Shown: piece by piece, positions 3,487 through 14,490 of the stretch
Layout: every line of letters starts with the position of its first letter
Numbering within the stretch: the first letter of the stretch is position 1
Source: Nonlabens dokdonensis
GTDB lineage: Bacteria; Bacteroidota; Bacteroidia; Flavobacteriales; Flavobacteriaceae
Assembly (NCBI RefSeq): GCF_002162835.1
Contig: NZ_MAAX01000117.1
Location: forward strand, 1 to 52,365
DNA length: 52,365 nt
Direction: 5' to 3'
Made by a program: the position numbers and the translations under genes
The notes under the pieces: generated by a model
Databases searched by the model: none
Told to the model about the DNA's origin: nothing
Seen by the model: only the letters and a program-made list of their open reading frames with translations

Positions 3487-4518
3487 ATGAACATTTGTTT
3501 TATCATGTATCCATGGGAAGAAATCAAGGCAGAAACTGATTCTACCTTAACCATAATTCATGAGTGTATTAAACGTGGTCATAAAGTGGCTATAGCTACA
3601 CCTGCAAATCTTACCATAAGAAATAGTATTGCCTATGCTTTTTCTAAAGTGATTAAGAAAATGGATAAAGTACCAGCTCAAATGAAATCTTTCTATAAGC
3701 AAGCCCAGCTCAAAGAGAAGATGCTACCGCTAGCTGGTTTTGATATAATCATGATGAGAGCAAATCCACCATTAGATCCTATTGCGCTTAATTTTTTAGA
3801 TTCTGTAAAAGATGATGTGTTTATCGTAAATGATATTGAAGGATTAAGAGAAGCAAATAATAAATTATATACGGCTTGTTTTGATGATCCTAACAATGAG
3901 ATTATTCCTGCAACCCATGTTTCTAAAAATAAGCAATATCTTAAAAGCGTCATTAAAGAAAATCCACGAGATAAAATGATCATGAAACCATTGAACGGTT
4001 ATGGTGGTAGCGGTGTTATCATGATAGAAAAAACTGCAATGGGCAATGTAAATTCCTTGCTTGATTTTTACATTGATAATAAAGACGGTTCTACAAATTA
4101 TGTAATTTTACAAGATTACATAGAAGGAGCAGATAAAGGTGACTCTCGTATATTATTATTAAATGGAGAACCTATAGGAGCTGTACGACGAGTACCTGGA
4201 GATGAGGATCATAGATCTAATATTAGTGCAGGAGGAACTTTCCAGCGTCATCAACTTACAAAAGCAGAAAAAAACCTTTGTAAAAAAATAGGCCCAAAGC
4301 TAATTAAGGATGGATTATACTTTGTGGGAATAGATGTGATTAATGGCATGCTGGTAGAGGTTAATGTAATGTCACCAGGAGGCATTGTACAAATTAACAA
4401 GGCATCTAAAGTTAAAATCCAATCTAAAATTATAGATTATTTTGAGAATGTCGTTCAAGATCGTATCAAGTCATTAGAACGTCGCAATAAACTTAAAAGT
4501 ACCATAGTAGATGCTTAA
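3487..4518 (+). CDS. ATP-grasp protein, glutathione synthetase-like
   Basis: MKPLNGYGGSGVIMIEK, LQDYIEGADKGDSRILLLNGEPIGAVRR and VEVNVMSPGGI motifs. Confidence 0.8.
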   Translation: MNICFIMYPWEEIKAETDSTLTIIHECIKRGHKVAIATPANLTIRNSIAYAFSKVIKKMDKVPAQMKSFYKQAQLKEKMLPLAGFDIIMMRANPPLDPIALNFLDSVKDDVFIVNDIEGLREANNKLYTACFDDPNNEIIPATHVSKNKQYLKSVIKENPRDKMIMKPLNGYGGSGVIMIEKTAMGNVNSLLDFYIDNKDGSTNYVILQDYIEGADKGDSRILLLNGEPIGAVRRVPGDEDHRSNISAGGTFQRHQLTKAEKNLCKKIGPKLIKDGLYFVGIDVINGMLVEVNVMSPGGIVQINKASKVKIQSKIIDYFENVVQDRIKSLERRNKLKSTIVDA

Positions 4519-5341
4519 ATTGTCCATTTTAGAAATCATTGAACGCATTGAGAGAGAAGAAGCGTTTCATGCGGTAGTGGAGGATTATTCCTTTTCCATA
4601 AAAATAGATGATTATGTTCCATATGCTTGTGCAGCGATACATAATGGCCATCATTTCCCTAAAGATCTTTGGGAGAACTGTCATCACACAGAGCATGAAA
4701 GATGGTATGAAGAAGACCCATGCACTGGACAAATGATTTCAGGATTACCTATCACTTTAATTGCGCACGATAGTAGGTTTGAATACGATTTAAACAGACA
4801 CCCTAAAACTGCCTTATATGATACTGCTTGGGGTAAAAAATTGTGGAAAGTACCACTAACTGAAAAACAAAAGGTAAGGGCATTAACTAAACATGAAAAT
4901 TTTTATAAAGTAGTACTAACTTTACTGGTAAAGTTAGAAGAACTTTTTGGCAGTTGTGTTTTCTACGATTTACACTCATACAATTGGAAACGATGGGATC
5001 GCGAGGTACCAGTTTTTAATATAGGAACTTCTAATGTAGATAATGACAAGTTTAGTGTAGCCATAAAACAATGGCAGGAAATCCTTAACGATATGCCATT
5101 ACCCATTGATCAAAAAGTAGCTTGTTCTATCAACGATGTTTTTCAAGGAAATGGTTTCTTCTTAAAGTACGTTACTTCTAATTCACTAAATACACTAGTT
5201 CTTGCAACAGAAGTTTCCAAGATCTATTGCGACGAGTTAACAGGTAGAATTTATCCAGAAGTTGTTCATTCTATAGAAGACATGTTCCGCTATTATATAA
5301 AAGCTCATGCTCATCGCTTTTATGACAGACATGATGCCTAA
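4511..5341 (+). CDS. N-formylglutamate amidohydrolase-like protein
   Basis: NGHHFP, TLIAHDSRFEYDLNR and FYDLHSYNWKR motifs; overlaps the upstream gene by 8 nt. Confidence 0.7.
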   Translation: MLKLSILEIIERIEREEAFHAVVEDYSFSIKIDDYVPYACAAIHNGHHFPKDLWENCHHTEHERWYEEDPCTGQMISGLPITLIAHDSRFEYDLNRHPKTALYDTAWGKKLWKVPLTEKQKVRALTKHENFYKVVLTLLVKLEELFGSCVFYDLHSYNWKRWDREVPVFNIGTSNVDNDKFSVAIKQWQEILNDMPLPIDQKVACSINDVFQGNGFFLKYVTSNSLNTLVLATEVSKIYCDELTGRIYPEVVHSIEDMFRYYIKAHAHRFYDRHDA

Positions 5342-6509
5342 AAATTCTCCTGACATAGATCTATCAAAATTTCAAGATGTTCTTGATATAGATGCAAATA
5401 TTCATCGCATTGTAAAAAATCTCGAATTACTTGCCTATATCAATCCGCTTAATATCTCACAGGAACGTAAAGAGTTTTTCAAATCTAAATATATACACGA
5501 GCCCCAATTTAAATATCGTAAACTTAAATTCAAGCCTTACAAGTTGCATCGCATGTTCTTTAGTCAGCGACTAGAACGCATTGAAGATGATGATATACGG
5601 TCGTTATATAAGGATATCATCTATACATACAGTGGTCTCGTGCAGTGTATTGAGACCATACGTGAGCCTAGCAGTAAATTCTACTTTAATAGTTTACGCT
5701 TTTTTGGTACACCAACAGAAAAAATGGTAGAAAATGCTAAGTTCATATTACATTTTAAAGATGAGCCGCTTACAGAAATCAAACACCAGGCTGTTTTAAG
5801 TACTGAAGAGGCAGAGGCTTTTTTCATAAAGTATAGAGAACTGTATGACTTTGACTTTGATATAAAAACAAGTAGTGCAATGAGTGCTGCGGCTATGGTT
5901 TCAAATAAAGACAAGTCGCTTATTCTTAAAAAAGGACATTTATACTCTCAACACGAGCTTAATGTGCTGGCTCATCATGAAATAGGTGTACACCTTGTCA
6001 CAACATTTAATGCTATCGAGCAACCTCTCAAAATCTTTAGCAATGGTTTTCCTAATAATGTAGAAACTCAGGAAGGTCTTGCAGTGATGTCAGAATATAT
6101 GAGTGGTAATCTGACCCTTAGTCGTTTAAAAGAACTTGCTTATAGAGTCATAGCAACAGATTCTCTAATTAAAGGATATTCATTTGCAGACACCTTTGAT
6201 TTGATACATGGTCAGTACAAACTTGATAGAGATCGAGCTTTTAATATAACCCTTCGTACACATCGTGGCGGTGGTTTTACTAAAGACGCATTATACCTTT
6301 CTGGCTTGAAAAAGGTATATGATTTACACAAGTCTAATACTTCATTTGACAATATGATATTAGGAAAATGCTCTTTAGAGTATAATAATATCATAGAAAA
6401 AATGAAAGAATTACGACTGGTATCACCAGCAACCCATCATGCAAAAAGCTTTGATGCTCAACTTAATAATAATCCGACTATAGACTTTATACTCGGTCAC
6501 TTAAAATAG
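5307..6509 (+). CDS. QEGLA-motif (DUF1704/MATCAP-like) putative metallopeptidase
   Basis: HHEIGVHL and ETQEGLAVMSEYM motifs. The true start may be one of the downstream ATGs near 5322-5331. Confidence 0.8.
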   Translation: MLIAFMTDMMPKNSPDIDLSKFQDVLDIDANIHRIVKNLELLAYINPLNISQERKEFFKSKYIHEPQFKYRKLKFKPYKLHRMFFSQRLERIEDDDIRSLYKDIIYTYSGLVQCIETIREPSSKFYFNSLRFFGTPTEKMVENAKFILHFKDEPLTEIKHQAVLSTEEAEAFFIKYRELYDFDFDIKTSSAMSAAAMVSNKDKSLILKKGHLYSQHELNVLAHHEIGVHLVTTFNAIEQPLKIFSNGFPNNVETQEGLAVMSEYMSGNLTLSRLKELAYRVIATDSLIKGYSFADTFDLIHGQYKLDRDRAFNITLRTHRGGGFTKDALYLSGLKKVYDLHKSNTSFDNMILGKCSLEYNNIIEKMKELRLVSPATHHAKSFDAQLNNNPTIDFILGHLK

Positions 6510-6564: not shown

Positions 6565-8397
6565 CTATAGTTTATAAATTTTATGAGTGGACGATTTTCC
6601 ATATAGGTTGACACTTTTTAATATATACAAGCCATTTGATAATTGAGATAAGTCTACCTCGTTTAATCCTGATGATAATCTATCGTACCTTAATAGCTTA
6701 CCACTTAAATCAAATAGAGAATAGCTAGTGTCATGTAGTGTATTTATAGTTATGTAATTTGTTACTGGGTTAGGATATAACGCCACAATACCTTCAGTAG
6801 GTCGATCATTTATTGATAAAGGATCATAAATGACCGTATTATAGGTATTAGTTGTGATAGGTAAGTTATAATCAAAGAAAATGTTTGCAGTAGCTTCAAA
6901 ATCATCGCCTACTGATGCAGTGGTACTTGATTTGATTCTATAGAAAATCCATCCATGACTTGCTGGTTCATTTGTTGTGCTATCTTCTAGATTGATATTA
7001 TTAAAAGTATAGGTAAGTTCATTTCCATTGATAATTGATGTTGTATATGCGTGTGATGCGGTTAATGGCTCAAACGTGCTCCAGTCTAATTCTGAGTCTA
7101 ATACAGTTTTAACAATTATATTTACTGCAGATGCAGTGCCCGTATTTTGAAAACGGATTCTATAAGTTAATTCATCACCTACTTGGGCAGGCGTGATTTG
7201 ATCACCTTGTATACACAAAACATCATTTGGGTCATATGCATTTACTACCGGTTGACTCAAATTAATATTATTATTAGTAGGATCAAAATCTACAGCTGGT
7301 GTGATGTTTCCAGTAAAATTTAATATTTCGCCTGAATTAACAGTAGGCGGCGTAAAAATATTAAATGACATCGTGATGCTTCTTATTTCCAATGGCGTTA
7401 GATTGCTATAAGTCCAGGTAATGGAATTACTTGTTACACTGGATGGAGTTATGGAGGCTGATAGGAAAGTCATTTTAGTCGCATCAAAGTTTAATACTAT
7501 AGATTCATTGCCAGTGGTAACATTCCCATGATTCATATAAATAAGTTCATAGTCTGCATTAAATCCTGGTCTAGCTAGTGTCTGGCTTACTAATTGAGCG
7601 CTCACATCTATACCAGTCGTATTGCTCGTAAGACAAAAATCATTGTTTAAATACGAATTTGTTGTAGAGTCTATAGTTAGATTAATAGAGCTTGGAATAG
7701 CAATTAGATTACCATTATTTACTGGTTCAATTAAAAAATTGCCAGTTATATTGGGCAAAAGAAAAGTATAATTACCATTGATTGTTGATGTAAAGTAACT
7801 TGAATTATCGCTCAGGTTAGTAATTTTCATAGGAAAATTATTCAACATATTAGGGTTAGAGCAGCTGGTTGCGTTAATAGAACCACTCACTATTTTGGGA
7901 TTATAAACTTCTAAACGAGCACCAGCTAAAAAGAACTGACTGCTAGGTATTGTGATTCTAAGCTGATAGTTGCCTGCGGTAACGTTCGAAAAAATCAAGG
8001 TGCTATTTTTAGGATTAGGCCAGTCTGTACATGTTCCGGCTATGGTATTAATGGTAGTTGCGCTAATCGAAGTTGAATTAGAATCGATCAATTCAAAAGT
8101 GCCTGCGTTACCTGTAAAAATTAATCCGTATTCTAGCTCTAGTTCATAAAAACCACTTGCCCCTAAACTAAAAACAGGAGAAGTGATCGTTGCATTAGGA
8201 TTACCTAAATTATCTACAAACAATGCCTTACAACCACCATTGAACCATGATGCAGTTACCGTATTAGGCGCAATAGTCCAGTTCATTACATCTGCAGCAG
8301 TGCTAAAAGAACTAGATGGAATAGGCACATTCTGACCATAAGAACAAGGCACAAAAAGAATGCATATAAAACTGATTAGGAGTAAAGTGTTTTTCAT
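6565..8397 (-). CDS. Secreted protein with DUF11-like repeats and a T9SS type A sorting domain
   Basis: Signal peptide; C-terminal VALYPNPVTNYITINTL...LFDLSGKLL...LSNGLYILK. Confidence 0.8.
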   Translation of the reverse strand: MKNTLLLISFICILFVPCSYGQNVPIPSSSFSTAADVMNWTIAPNTVTASWFNGGCKALFVDNLGNPNATITSPVFSLGASGFYELELEYGLIFTGNAGTFELIDSNSTSISATTINTIAGTCTDWPNPKNSTLIFSNVTAGNYQLRITIPSSQFFLAGARLEVYNPKIVSGSINATSCSNPNMLNNFPMKITNLSDNSSYFTSTINGNYTFLLPNITGNFLIEPVNNGNLIAIPSSINLTIDSTTNSYLNNDFCLTSNTTGIDVSAQLVSQTLARPGFNADYELIYMNHGNVTTGNESIVLNFDATKMTFLSASITPSSVTSNSITWTYSNLTPLEIRSITMSFNIFTPPTVNSGEILNFTGNITPAVDFDPTNNNINLSQPVVNAYDPNDVLCIQGDQITPAQVGDELTYRIRFQNTGTASAVNIIVKTVLDSELDWSTFEPLTASHAYTTSIINGNELTYTFNNINLEDSTTNEPASHGWIFYRIKSSTTASVGDDFEATANIFFDYNLPITTNTYNTVIYDPLSINDRPTEGIVALYPNPVTNYITINTLHDTSYSLFDLSGKLLRYDRLSSGLNEVDLSQLSNGLYILKSVNLYGKSSTHKIYKL

Positions 8398-8615: not shown

Positions 8616-8631
8616 CGCTTTCGCGAAAGCG
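8616..8631. repeat. Palindromic repeat CGCTTTCGCGAAAGCG, perfect
   Basis: Read directly; upstream of the small-peptide operon. Confidence 0.97.
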
Positions 8632-8943
8632 AAATCACCATTTATATTACAACCTTATCTATAAGATCTATGATTAAATAAGCCTTAAGAAGTCCAGCAT
8701 GTCGGAATAACGACAACGGTACTAGCGCATATTCTTTTGGTTTTTTTAATGAAATGTCTGTTTTTACCCAAATTTAAATTCTAGTATTTATACTGTTTTA
8801 AACCATTGATTATCAGTATACATTTAACATGTATTTAAAAACGATCCATCGATTGAGTAGCTACATTTTTTTTTAAATACAATAGGTGGAATCCGAAAAG
8901 CCTAAATTTTTCAATAGAGTAGGAGAACCAAAATACTTTTATT

Positions 8944-9123
8944 ATGAGTAGTGAAATTAAAATGAACAAAGCAGAGATTTTATCTCAATTAAAAAAAGAA
9001 GGCGTAACAAACCTAGACGAGTTTGCAGATATGCTTATCAAAAAAACACATAAAGATGGTGATGAAAATAAACCTATTGTTATGGCAGCAATAGTTTATC
9101 AGCACGGTTTCGTATCGCACTAG
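8944..9123 (+). CDS. Small peptide (59 aa), candidate RiPP-type precursor
   Basis: ATG at 8944, TAG at 9121-9123: MSSEIKMNKAEILSQLKKEGVTNLDEFADMLIKKTHKDGDENKPIVMAAIVYQHGFVSH. Charged, helical leader-like N-terminus and short hydrophobic tail; missing from the ORF track, probably because of its length. Confidence 0.7.
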   Translation: MSSEIKMNKAEILSQLKKEGVTNLDEFADMLIKKTHKDGDENKPIVMAAIVYQHGFVSH

Positions 9124-9189
9124 ATATATCAAACAGGTTGTAGCTTTTCTAGGTACAACCTGTTTTATTTAATAATTAAAACTTACTCT

Positions 9190-10140
9190 ATGAATGCCTT
9201 ATTAAATATGAAAGATCAGCAATTAATGCTAGACGGTATTTTAAACTGGTTACATACTAATATTTCACATTTTTGCACACCTGATGAAAAGCAATATGTA
9301 GGGATACATCCAGAAGAAATAAAGCCTGACATTACTAGAAAAGCATTCACTGAATTAGGACTTGCAATACGATTTGCACAAAAATCAAAAAAGGTAAGTA
9401 ACCATCCTATCTTCATAGAAATAAAGGATAAGTGGATCAAAAATATTAAGGATAGCTCATTTTTTTTTGATACAAAAAGAAGGTTGAGACTATTTCCACA
9501 TAGAACACTAGCCTATGCAACGCTTAAATCTTTAGGCATCAATTATGAAGAAGTAAAGTATGATCTAGAAACTGTAATGAGCAGAAATTACATGGATAGA
9601 GTAGAGCGTAGCGCTTGGGATAAACTGGATATGAAATATTATACAGAAATTGCTCAGTTACCTAATGAATATCCTAGTTACCAAAGATTATTTCATGATT
9701 CAATTCTAGAAAATTTACCTAGTCATTCTTATGCACAAAATTTAGATTTTTATGGTTTAACGCATTTAGTATTTCATCTATCTAATTTTTCTGAAAATGA
9801 TATGAAATTAATTACAAAAGAAAAGTTTGATCAAATACAAGAGTATATAGACGCAACTCTTTCTTTGTGTTTAATAGAGCAAGATTGGGATTTAGTTCAA
9901 GAACTATTGATCAATCAATATTGTATGAGAAAGACCTTTACAGAATTAGATATTTTTTCAGCAAACGCCATTAAAGACATACAGCAACCACAGGGCTTCA
10001 TTCCTGGAAGACACTGGGTAAAAAATCAACATAAAGAGGACTACTCCAGTAAAGAACAACACAGTTTTGAAGATGTCTATCACCCAACAATTTTGGGGCT
10101 GTTTTTATTAATCCTTGAATTAAAAGATACTAATGAATAG
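9190..10140 (+). CDS. Helical protein of unknown function, possibly DUF6895-like / alpha-toroid
   Basis: Starts 66 nt after the small peptide; IQQPQGFIPGRHW resembles a QW-type toroid motif; HPTILGLFLL near the C-terminus. Family assignment is tentative. Confidence 0.55.
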   Translation: MNALLNMKDQQLMLDGILNWLHTNISHFCTPDEKQYVGIHPEEIKPDITRKAFTELGLAIRFAQKSKKVSNHPIFIEIKDKWIKNIKDSSFFFDTKRRLRLFPHRTLAYATLKSLGINYEEVKYDLETVMSRNYMDRVERSAWDKLDMKYYTEIAQLPNEYPSYQRLFHDSILENLPSHSYAQNLDFYGLTHLVFHLSNFSENDMKLITKEKFDQIQEYIDATLSLCLIEQDWDLVQELLINQYCMRKTFTELDIFSANAIKDIQQPQGFIPGRHWVKNQHKEDYSSKEQHSFEDVYHPTILGLFLLILELKDTNE

Positions 10141-10990
10141 TTTACACAAAAAATCTTTAAGTAATATCTATCACTGGTTAAACAGTTTATCAACTGATCA
10201 AGCTTGTGATCAAATTGTTCCAATTCTTGCTTTAGTAAAAATTTGTAAGCTCAATAAAGATTTTTTGCAAGAAGAATTTAATACTCTTACAACAAAATTC
10301 TTAAAGCAAGTCGATGTTATTGATTATGTAGAACAAGATATATTTCACTCCTTACTGGCCATAGATCTTGTAGAAAGTTCAGGCAACCTATCACATAAAT
10401 ATAACGCCGCAGCGTATAAGTCGATATTAAAAGAATTATGGATTGAAGGCCTTTATGCTAATAAAAAAAATCTCTTAGATAGTGTTTTTATACATCATGA
10501 AAAAACTTCTGATGTTCTAGAGATATCAATACAACTAGATCGTTACAGCGCAAATATTGATAAGAAAATTTCAAAAGTTATGAATCTCGTCGAAGCACAA
10601 AGTAATTATGGAAGAAGAATTATCAAAACTGATAAGCTAAGTATTCTGTTGATAGAAGCCATGGCTACAAGAGCCCAAAGAGCAAATGACATTACAACTG
10701 CGGCTAGATGTCTTAGATCAAGATTATATGTGTCCACCCATGATTCATTACTAATGAAATCAGGTATGAAATTCTTGTTATCTCAACAATGTTTTGATGG
10801 AAGCTTTGGAGACTACGATGCTGATCTACTCAAAATAAAAAATGAAAAACATCGAGAAAAGTCAACTCTGAAAATTAAATTGATAGTTGCCATTCAAATT
10901 GTGTGGACTATCATGGAGTACAATGGTTATAATTTATTTTCCTCTTTTCAAGACCAAGGAACTTTTTCAACTACCACTAAACCTATGTAA
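10133..10990 (+). CDS. Helical protein of unknown function, alpha-toroid-like, possible distant paralog of the upstream gene
   Basis: Overlaps the upstream gene by 8 nt; GMKFLLSQQCFDGSFGDYD matches the general QW/toroid pattern (FLLxxQxxDGSFG). Confidence 0.55.
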   Translation: MNSLHKKSLSNIYHWLNSLSTDQACDQIVPILALVKICKLNKDFLQEEFNTLTTKFLKQVDVIDYVEQDIFHSLLAIDLVESSGNLSHKYNAAAYKSILKELWIEGLYANKKNLLDSVFIHHEKTSDVLEISIQLDRYSANIDKKISKVMNLVEAQSNYGRRIIKTDKLSILLIEAMATRAQRANDITTAARCLRSRLYVSTHDSLLMKSGMKFLLSQQCFDGSFGDYDADLLKIKNEKHREKSTLKIKLIVAIQIVWTIMEYNGYNLFSSFQDQGTFSTTTKPM

Positions 10991-10993
10991 ATT

Positions 10994-11734
10994 ATGCTTA
11001 GTAAAGACCAAATACAGTACTTTATGGAGAATGGAGTTTTGATTCTTCGTAATTTTTTTTCTGATGATGAAGTAAGTACCTGGCGCAATCAGGCATTAAA
11101 CCACCATAAAAATCCTAAAACAAGCGAGGAATGGAAATATGCTATTATGAACTGTCCTAGTAGTGAATTTCATTTGAAAAATGATGCTCATCCTGCGATT
11201 CATAAAAAAATGAATGCATTATATCAATGTTTTAATGACCAGATAGAATGGACTGGTGAGAACGAACTTGTTGCTAGAAGACCAGAAATAGATGCCGAAT
11301 GGCTAGGAGCTAGAACGCCTCATCTGGACTTCCCGGTATATGACAAAATTAGAACACTAGCAAATAGCGTGTTTTACTTGAATGATGTAACTCCTAAAGG
11401 AGGACCTTTGATGTACTGGGAGAAAAGTCATAAAGTAGCTTGGGATTATTTTAAAGAAAATCCCTCGCATTATATGGCGCAAGGTGATTTAAGCCAAGGA
11501 CAGATTTTTGAAATACTTACAGAATCTATGGATTCTGACCCTATACCATTTTATGGAAAAGCAGGTGATTTACTGATCTGGCACTCTCTTACATTGCATT
11601 CTCCATCAGTTAATTTATCACATGATGCAAGATTAGCTATTATAGGTAGATGGGGCGCGACTATTAAGGATGAAGAGCTTAGGTTTGATTTTTCTAAAAA
11701 CATTTGGGACAAGTGGCATTTAAAGACATTCTAA
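10994..11734 (+). CDS. Phytanoyl-CoA dioxygenase (PhyH) family Fe(II)/2-oxoglutarate oxygenase
   Basis: FMENGVLILRNFFSDDEV N-terminus; HLDFP (HxD); distal ...LLIWHSLTLHSPSVNLSHDARLAIIGRWG. Confidence 0.8.
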   Translation: MLSKDQIQYFMENGVLILRNFFSDDEVSTWRNQALNHHKNPKTSEEWKYAIMNCPSSEFHLKNDAHPAIHKKMNALYQCFNDQIEWTGENELVARRPEIDAEWLGARTPHLDFPVYDKIRTLANSVFYLNDVTPKGGPLMYWEKSHKVAWDYFKENPSHYMAQGDLSQGQIFEILTESMDSDPIPFYGKAGDLLIWHSLTLHSPSVNLSHDARLAIIGRWGATIKDEELRFDFSKNIWDKWHLKTF

Positions 11735-11778: not shown

Positions 11779-14490
11779 CTAAAACGTAGGATCTGGTTGC
11801 CTGCGTTGATCCCATTTAATATCACTTAACGCACTTGCTTTGATACCTATAAAGAAAAACCAGCTGTTCTGAGGTCCGATAGGCGTCCAGTTAAAACTCA
11901 TTGTAAAACTCTCGAGATCTCTCTGAAATCTAATGGTGCTAAAAGAAATTCCCTTATTAGCAAAATCATATCCAGTATTTCCTCCTATAGACCATCGTGG
12001 TGAAAGCTCTACGTCACCACTCACCATCAAACTTTGCTGATTGATCATATTTTGACGCTGTGCGTTTATATATGTCATGGTATAAGCAAAATTCAAATTC
12101 CAAGGTATTTTAAAACGGTACCGGTCTTTTTTGATATCTACGTCTGTTTTTTCAACTTTTTGTCCTTGATCGCGGCTGTAATCTACAGACTCACCGAATA
12201 GACCATCATCACGACCACCATTTTCTAGAGTTCTTTCTTGGGATTGCTTGTCTTCTTTATCTTCAGTTTTTTCAAAATCTTTACTGCTTAGTCTAAAACT
12301 TGTTCTGAAACCAGCTCTAGTAAGACGGAATAGACTACCACCATTATTGATATTAAAGGTATTGATGCGATTGTTATTATTATCTAGCGCATAAGGATCA
12401 AAGTTTGCGTCTAAATTGAGATCAATATTTTTAGTAATGGGAATCACACCTCTCACTTGTAAAGGACTCCAGTTTAATGAATCACCAGCCAGATTATAAG
12501 CGGTATTAAAAGAAAGTGTTTTAAGAATTTGTACTTTTTTAAGTTCAGTTTTTGTAGAATCCCGTTCCCTTACTTTTGCTTCTATATTATTTTGAACTCC
12601 TAAATTTATACTACTAGAAAATACACGTCCTGGAGCACCGAATAAAGTTCCCTCAAAACGACTGTAAAACTGTTCTTCTGTTCCTGGTGCATCTAGTCCT
12701 TGCTCTGTTACTAATCTATCGTAGTACTGATCAAAACTAGGGTTTGCAGAGTAGCTTATGTTAGGCCTAATGATATGTCTTACGGCTTGAACTTTTGATT
12801 TAGGATTCTTTGATTTCCAGCTACCATAAATGGTAGTACCTATACTAGCACCATAGCTGTATGTTCTATATGCTGCAAAACCACTTATGGTATCTCTTAC
12901 TGTGTTAAAGACACCGTTATCATTTTCTTCAAGAGTTTGTCTAAAGGTTTCAAAAACCCAGTTTTCTTCAAAATTAGCATTTGCACTTACACTAAAATAT
13001 CCTACCTTAAAATTAGTCGCGACCGGTATACTATGCTGTAAACCCATGATTGCATTATCAAACATGTTGTCACTTAAAAAATCCTCATCTGTTGTGGTGA
13101 TTCTATTTTCACCCCTTAAATTGTATTGCAAATTAATATTCTGCAAAGCTCCTTTTTTAGTGCCTTCCTTTGGAGCAAAAGGAAAAACTCGAGAAACACT
13201 TGCTTGTAAAGTAGGTAAAGTAAGATTTACCACATTAGTATTTGTATTTTGATTGTGAGTGGCACTTGCATTAATATTTACTTGTGGCTCGCCAGGAAAT
13301 GTTTTTGAATAGGAAATAGAACTACTTAGATTATTGACAAGTGTAGCACTTTGATTTACTTGATTAAACGACTGCCTAAAGAACTGGCTACTACCTAAAT
13401 TAACGCTGGCACTAAATCTTGAATTAGGGTTTGATTTGGGATCTTGAGAATGCTGCCAGTTGATATTATAGCGAGATGTTTGAGCAAAATCAGAAAATCC
13501 ACGTTCACTTTGTAATTGATTCTCGTATAAAAACCTGAAACTACCGTTATACTTATAACGTACCTTATAATTGCTCTCAACTCTCGCACCATAGCTGCCA
13601 TTAGTAAAATAATCACCTAGTAATGTGAGATCAAGATAGTCGTTCACTGCAAAATAATAACCACCATTTTGTAAAAAATAACCTTGATTATTATTGTTAC
13701 CGAAGCTAGGAAGAATCACGCCACTTTTGCGCTCGTTAGTCATAGGAAAAAAAGCAAAGGGCAATCCTAGTGGAGTAGGAACGTCTGCGATATACATATT
13801 TACTAATCCTGTAACAATCTTCTTCTTAGGTACAAATTTTATTTTTCTAGCATAGAAATAATATTCTGGATTCTTAGGATCTTTAGAAGTTGTGAATCTT
13901 GCGTTTTCCATGTAGAAAACTGAATCATTAACTTTCTTAGTTGTTTCGGCAAGAACGTTAAATTCTCCTTGCGTCGTTTCTGAATTGTACGTAAGTGCTT
14001 TTTGAGAATCTTTATTAAAAATTATTGAATCTGGTTTAACCACATTAGTTCCTTGTGAGAAAACAGGTTTTTGCGTGTAACCCAAAGAATCCAAGGTGAT
14101 ACCATAAGCAAAAACGTCACCTGTATTATTATTAATGACAATTTTACCTGCTTCGATTGTTATATCACCATAAACGATTTTTGCCTCATTATATAAAGTT
14201 ATGGTATTATTCTTTCTATCGATGCGTTTATAATCCTTGGCGGTAGACTCTATGCGGTACTCTAAAAAAGATTTTGGCTTTTTTATAGAATCATTCTTAG
14301 TTGTATCTACAGCAGTAAGAGGTATTTCTACTTTCTGTGGGATTTCTTTTACCTCTTCTTGTTCTTGAGTTGTAGGTTGGTTTTCAGCAGGTATAGGAGT
14401 TCCTTTAGACGGTGTTTCTTGGGCTGTAACCAGTGGAGCAACTGTTAAAAACAGTATGAACAAAATTATATACTTAATCAGTGAATGCAA
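11779..14490 (-). CDS. lptD: LPS-assembly outer membrane protein LptD
   Basis: OstA-like N-terminus (NNTITLYNEAKIVYGDITIEAGKIVINNNTGDVFAYG), PTPLGLPFAFFPMTNERKSGVILPSFG, then a long beta-barrel. Confidence 0.85.
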   Translation of the reverse strand: MHSLIKYIILFILFLTVAPLVTAQETPSKGTPIPAENQPTTQEQEEVKEIPQKVEIPLTAVDTTKNDSIKKPKSFLEYRIESTAKDYKRIDRKNNTITLYNEAKIVYGDITIEAGKIVINNNTGDVFAYGITLDSLGYTQKPVFSQGTNVVKPDSIIFNKDSQKALTYNSETTQGEFNVLAETTKKVNDSVFYMENARFTTSKDPKNPEYYFYARKIKFVPKKKIVTGLVNMYIADVPTPLGLPFAFFPMTNERKSGVILPSFGNNNNQGYFLQNGGYYFAVNDYLDLTLLGDYFTNGSYGARVESNYKVRYKYNGSFRFLYENQLQSERGFSDFAQTSRYNINWQHSQDPKSNPNSRFSASVNLGSSQFFRQSFNQVNQSATLVNNLSSSISYSKTFPGEPQVNINASATHNQNTNTNVVNLTLPTLQASVSRVFPFAPKEGTKKGALQNINLQYNLRGENRITTTDEDFLSDNMFDNAIMGLQHSIPVATNFKVGYFSVSANANFEENWVFETFRQTLEENDNGVFNTVRDTISGFAAYRTYSYGASIGTTIYGSWKSKNPKSKVQAVRHIIRPNISYSANPSFDQYYDRLVTEQGLDAPGTEEQFYSRFEGTLFGAPGRVFSSSINLGVQNNIEAKVRERDSTKTELKKVQILKTLSFNTAYNLAGDSLNWSPLQVRGVIPITKNIDLNLDANFDPYALDNNNNRINTFNINNGGSLFRLTRAGFRTSFRLSSKDFEKTEDKEDKQSQERTLENGGRDDGLFGESVDYSRDQGQKVEKTDVDIKKDRYRFKIPWNLNFAYTMTYINAQRQNMINQQSLMVSGDVELSPRWSIGGNTGYDFANKGISFSTIRFQRDLESFTMSFNWTPIGPQNSWFFFIGIKASALSDIKWDQRRQPDPTF

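Follow-up and report, generated by a model that had tools for sequence, protein, structure and literature searches.

RiPP clusters are recognized by a short precursor gene that lies beside the genes for maturation enzymes. To our knowledge, few enzyme families are known to install D-residues in ribosomal peptides, a change that makes peptides resist proteases. The polytheonamide-type proteusins, which have a nitrile-hydratase-like leader, use the radical-SAM epimerase PoyD together with an Fe/2OG hydroxylase. MslH, the epimerase of the lasso peptide MS-271, is reported to be radical-SAM-free and to rely on metal-dependent, acid-base chemistry (PMC10406935). Closest to the present case, a lasso-peptide epimerase of the DUF6895 family is named in the title of Shi et al., ACS Catal. 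2026, 16, 1757 (ref. 371, PMC13352647). RiPPs and, by that title, one DUF6895 epimerase are already known; searches of the open literature found no further description of DUF6895 and none of a comparable RiPP epimerase.

Here we describe a four-gene operon in a 52,365-nucleotide stretch of Nonlabens dokdonensis DNA (contig NZ_MAAX01000117.1; this whole stretch is called the window), which encodes a 59-residue peptide, a DUF6895 protein, a helical partner protein and a PhyH-family oxygenase (Table 1). The reading that we favor, at slightly better than even probability, makes the operon a RiPP cassette of a non-lasso type: DUF6895, together with the partner, would epimerize the peptide, and PhyH would add a hydroxyl group. 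The key enzyme is of the same Pfam family as the titled lasso-peptide epimerase, and the proposed substrate is again a small ribosomal peptide. However, a lasso cluster was considered and rejected, since the transglutaminase-like B-protein family PF13471 is absent from the whole genome (93% complete) and the operon has no Asn-synthetase-like cyclase. These absences, together with a separate helical partner and the added PhyH enzyme, distinguish the locus from the lasso epimerase system as its title presents it. If our reading is right, the operon would resemble the polytheonamide-type proteusins in combining epimerization with 2OG-dependent hydroxylation of a ribosomal peptide, although the operon here has DUF6895 in place of PoyD, and its short leader matches no Pfam family. 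As with MslH, the proposed peptide epimerase would work without radical SAM. Judged against the open literature searched, the non-lasso cassette, its wide distribution, its precursor groups, the partner and the addition of PhyH are new. The initial annotation had called the system undescribed; this is only partly right, because DUF6895 now has one function claim, made in a title.

Organization and surroundings of the operon

The four co-directional ORFs all start with ATG and are joined by junctions of +66, -8 and +3 nt. An ORF check reproduced these coordinates and junctions as first annotated. The minus-strand genes on both flanks encode a DUF7619 protein with a T9SS sorting tail and LptD. 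The 59-aa ORF had been missing from the ORF track because a 60-aa cut-off would exclude it; lying 66 nt before DUF6895, it would give the locus the short precursor gene beside maturation enzymes that defines a RiPP cluster. Leader protease and exporter genes are missing from many RiPP clusters, and such functions may act in trans. Here, too, ORF and Pfam analysis found neither gene within the four-gene operon, in agreement with the initial annotation, and no recognized cleavage site is present in the 59-aa peptide.

Table 1. Features of the operon and its flanks (window positions)
Feature	Positions	Strand	Remarks
DUF7619 protein with T9SS sorting tail	6565-8397	minus	flanking gene
DUF805b cis-regulatory RNA motif (RF02914), leader of the peptide gene	8883-8925	+	ends 18 nt before ATG
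59-aa ORF (putative RiPP precursor gene)	8944-9123	+	ATG start
Terminator/attenuator-like hairpin and U-rich stretch between precursor and enzymes	9131-9170	+	predicted, -20.2 kcal/mol
DUF6895 gene, 316 aa, proposed peptide epimerase	9190-10140	+	PF21836
Helical partner gene, 285 aa, proposed non-catalytic DUF6895 subunit	10133-10990	+	homologs beside or fused to DUF6895
PhyH-family Fe(II)/2OG oxygenase gene, 246 aa, proposed peptide hydroxylase	10994-11734	+	PF05721
LptD	11779-14490	minus	flanking gene

The operon is present in two of 23 genomes of the genus. In the second carrier (G002) it lies in the same place, between the same neighbors, and has the same gene order and overlap. Identity between the window and G002 is 57/59 residues for the peptide, 83% for DUF6895, 62% for the partner, 79% for PhyH and 95% for LptD. 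LptD itself is present in 23/23 genomes; among those inspected the gene downstream of LptD varies, and no clean empty site for the operon was found. Occurrence in merely two genomes is what speaks for a chance neighborhood of four genes with no common function. However, order and overlap are retained in G002, and a small ORF, DUF6895 and the partner recur jointly in other phyla; a chance assembly is scarcely credible.

Elsewhere in the window (3487-6509), genes for a glutathione-synthetase-like ATP-grasp protein, an N-formylglutamate amidohydrolase and a MATCAP-family carboxypeptidase are clustered, and each of the first two overlaps the next by a few bases.

The 59-residue peptide

Between the window and G002, the 59-aa ORF differs by 15 substitutions, 13 of them synonymous and 2 nonsynonymous (dN/dS 0.024), and 13 of the 15 fall at codon position 3. 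By this pattern of substitution, and as the initial annotation had assumed, the small ORF is a real coding gene rather than a chance ORF, and its product is more constrained than the enzymes of the operon. The peptide has no match in Pfam or NCBIfam. It can be divided into a leader (about residues 1-42) and a tail (about residues 43-59, KPIVMAAIVYQHGFVSH), the boundary being an inferred one. In another flavobacterial genus (G634), a 51-aa peptide is followed by DUF6895 and the partner, without PhyH. The alignment of the window and G634 peptides is confined to the leader (z 6.9, 0/2000 shuffles), and the tails lie outside it. A leader that is kept beside a tail that is not would be the pattern expected of a precursor; the conserved leader and variable tail foreseen at first are thus seen in one relative, G634. 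Since the tail is identical in the window and G002, its variability rests on G634 and on more distant loci.

No significant similarity was found between the window peptide and precursors from other phyla. Two candidate relationships were rejected. Homology of the leader to precursors from Actinomycetota, Chloroflexota and Bacillota was not significant, a shuffled copy having scored higher. A tail motif common to all phyla was convincing by eye, but a scoring matrix from the other phyla did no better on the window peptide than on shuffles (p 0.5-0.9).

The whole peptide, including its tail, is nearly frozen between two species whose enzymes diverge, which is unlike many antimicrobial RiPPs. This, and an operon with no export or protease gene, would suit a peptide that serves a DUF6895-PhyH complex as a small subunit or regulator, the complex having some other molecule as its substrate. 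From a subunit, however, one would expect gentle covariation with the enzyme, whereas unrelated groups of small ORFs lie beside homologous enzymes (see below). In addition, a family member is reported, by title, to act on a lasso peptide, and the hairpin that follows the peptide gene is placed as would suit an excess of precursor. We regard a subunit or regulator as distinctly unlikely and retain the precursor reading.

Regulatory elements around the peptide gene

The DUF805b element that precedes the peptide gene scores 31.2 bits (E 8.6e-7), slightly under the gathering score (35.6), which its counterpart in G002 exceeds at 41.1. In the flavobacteria searched, DUF805b lies a short way upstream of many genes, including a number whose products look secreted or lipoprotein-like, with up to 27 matches in one genome (G634). 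The predicted hairpin between the peptide gene and the enzymes has a z of -5.0 in the window and -5.6 in G002; G634 has a similar hairpin of other sequence (z -2.5). A partial terminator at this position would yield more precursor than enzyme. A hairpin after the ORF and a cis-regulatory motif before it could also mark an attenuation leader peptide: translation of the ORF would control the hairpin and with it the downstream enzymes, and the peptide itself would have no further function. This is very unlikely, given amino-acid-level selection along the full length of the peptide and given other loci (L018, L019, L031, L032) at which the gap of 10-20 nt between the small ORF and DUF6895 is too short for such a hairpin.

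Two repeats lie further upstream. The inverted repeat TGTCG-N6-CGACA (8700-8715) is retained in G002 amid otherwise diverged DNA and is a possible operator. The palindrome CGCTTTCGCGAAAGCG (8616-8631) is also present upstream of the G002 operon and looks like a genus-wide repeat.

The DUF6895 protein

The product of the second gene matches DUF6895 at E 7.2e-53 (180.3 bits against a gathering score of 23.8) over profile positions 2-287 of 289; no sequence relative was found among PDB chains. Its AlphaFold2 model is all-helical (pLDDT 90.4, pTM 0.90), a fold from which that of MslH differs. When the model was compared with the PDB by Foldseek, the best E was 0.15, which is not significant, and TM-scores were mostly <0.5. 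The top matches are mainly alpha/alpha toroids, including intrinsic factor; the toroid enzymes squalene-hopene cyclase, type II terpene cyclases and GH105 provide the best fold resemblance, at E of at least 0.15. The description "toroid-like," originally given to both helical proteins, therefore fits the first in part, its all-alpha model being confident and the toroids leading a non-significant list; the model of the second is of low confidence.

Across 17 DUF6895 representatives (<60% identical to each other and 14-26% identical to the window protein), nine residues never vary (W20, E55, Y188, T191, H192, F195, D234, E238 and H298) and three hardly do (K51, Y297 and G269); the window protein has all of them. 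All of the nine except W20 (8/9) are also invariant in a 35-row alignment. The two histidines and the acidic residues would suit acid-base chemistry. Because these invariant residues look catalytic and a lasso-peptide epimerase is reported, by title, within the family, DUF6895 is probably the main enzyme of the operon, and not the mere binder or folder of the peptide that the initial annotation had proposed.

The operon could also be a RiPP cassette in which DUF6895 carries out a different reaction, such as cyclization or dehydration, the lasso epimerase being a specialized branch. The family is very diverse, as the low identities to the window protein indicate; its precursors form several unrelated groups; and the model is nearer to terpene-cyclase toroids than to any known peptide epimerase, without significance. 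However, eight residues invariant in 35/35 sequences favor one chemistry throughout, and the sole function claim for the family, that of the title, is epimerization. A different reaction is unlikely, yet a serious competitor, and epimerization remains the reaction that we prefer.

The helical partner

The 285-aa partner has no Pfam match; the motif shared among partner proteins is FLxxQQxxDGxFG. A profile was built from the three flavobacterial partners and was iterated. Round one picked up the genes that follow DUF6895 in Dictyobacter (E 5e-11), Pseudalkalibacillus and Alkalicoccus; the next round found the C-terminal part of fused DUF6895 proteins in Streptomyces, Kitasatospora and a deltaproteobacterial MAG. 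Partner homologs thus follow DUF6895 in both Chloroflexota and Bacillota. That the two proteins are fused in some genomes and encoded by adjoining genes in others suggests that DUF6895 and the partner act together. The iterated profile meets DUF6895 itself only after several rounds, where drift is possible. A profile comparison between the two (E 3e-4, probability 39%) has a matching register, and by these sequence comparisons a common origin is suggested. Models of the partners are of low confidence, with a pLDDT of 70 at best and 53-57 for the others; the window partner is fast-evolving, as its identity to G002 indicates.

The PhyH oxygenase

The last gene product matches PF05721 (E 1.2e-13, 52.2 bits vs 22) and has, by motif, the iron triad and the 2OG-binding arginine (H110-x-D112, H202 and R213), which bears out its first assignment as a PhyH oxygenase. 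No solved relative was found by sequence. PhyH belongs to the window's version of the cassette, since G002 keeps it in the operon and a search of 200 other genomes of the family gave no match at E 1e-12. Since the G634 relative is without it, PhyH is an accessory and lies outside the core unit.

Proposed maturation of the peptide

A small precursor, helical maturases and an oxygenase support the RiPP-like reading of the initial annotation, as far as sequence can tell. We infer the peptide's role as substrate, its epimerization, the action of PhyH on it, what the partner does and how the steps follow one another, as set out here. The 59-aa product would be the precursor, its leader charged and prone to form a helix and its C-terminal tail hydrophobic, and the hairpin right after its gene would keep it in excess over the enzymes. 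DUF6895, probably complexed with the partner, would bind the leader and convert at least one tail residue from the L to the D form through acid-base chemistry, with no involvement of radical SAM; the likely active-site residues would be the invariant H192 and H298 together with D234, E238, K51 and E55. PhyH would afterwards hydroxylate a residue of the tail. Any removal of the leader and any export would depend on genes located elsewhere. The flavobacterial version, with its added hydroxylase, comprises four genes and is small enough to be rebuilt in E. coli.

DUF6895 loci in other genomes

A single scan of 84,980 species genomes yielded 44 DUF6895 loci, which belong to Actinomycetota, Bacillota, Chloroflexota, Proteobacteria (Nitrosomonas and a Hyphomicrobiales MAG), a deltaproteobacterial MAG and Bacteroidota. 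Two plasmids, from Kitasatospora and Pseudalkalibacillus, contribute additional carriers. In 42 of the 44 loci, from at least five phyla, a small ORF is present upstream of DUF6895 on the same strand; the two loci without one are L051, a 3.3-kb contig, and L013. Thus, the small ORF that the initial annotation expected beside homologs of the DUF6895 gene is indeed conserved. By type, the 42 small ORFs comprise 29 from Streptomyces/Actinacidiphila, 9 of a cross-phylum type, 2 from Bacillus velezensis/siamensis, 1 from Aureivirga and 1 from Nitrosomonas. That peptide and enzyme are paired in at least five phyla suggests a kind of modified peptide that has received little study. A small helical family that is accompanied by a precursor gene in many phyla offers a direct handle for genome mining: where a DUF6895 gene is found, the precursor is to be sought next door.

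A broader proposal, tentative and somewhat short of even probability, is that DUF6895 and its partner define a widespread, lasso-independent RiPP class of their own, with a precursor, a toroid-like epimerase that needs no radical SAM, and the partner. Such a class would span at least five phyla and several unrelated precursor groups, some of them nearly invariant, a trait that would suit a signal or cofactor better than an antibiotic.

The 29 Streptomyces/Actinacidiphila loci (L016, L021-L030, L033-L036, L038-L041, L043-L050, L054, L055) encode a precursor-like peptide ending in ...RDTRECGGGLLLLGLLLISPPTPRPK, followed in the operon by two tandem DUF6895 genes and an unnamed protein of ~240 aa. 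From its sequences, this type looks like a widespread unstudied RiPP. The precursor motif RDTRECGGGLLLLGLLLISPPTPRP recurs in 29 species of the Streptomyces group; the product should therefore matter to its makers, and it could be isolated from type strains. In Actinacidiphila alni (L022), the last gene of the tandem DUF6895 operon encodes an S12 beta-lactamase-type protein, which would fit D-residues in the product because this family includes D-specific peptidases.

A near-invariant peptide core, GYVLAWERYVLVV, is encoded next to a gene for DUF6895 fused to the partner in Streptomyces, Kitasatospora and the deltaproteobacterial MAG and, slightly altered, in the Hyphomicrobiales MAG (L010, L017-L020, L031, L037). 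An ORF at L031 was considered as a lasso cyclase on account of an Asn-synthetase-like motif and rejected; it is a subtilase.

Within the window's own family, PF21836 matches were found in 6 of 400 genomes, and three of the six are lipoprotein-like. These three (L087, L088 and L089, from other Flavobacteriaceae) were left out of the set of loci, having lipoprotein-like N-termini and no evident precursor; at ~340-394 aa, they may be an exported branch of the DUF6895 family. In Bacillus siamensis and B. velezensis (L032 and L042), which are genetically tractable, a 59-aa peptide is accompanied by DUF6895 and two more helical proteins.
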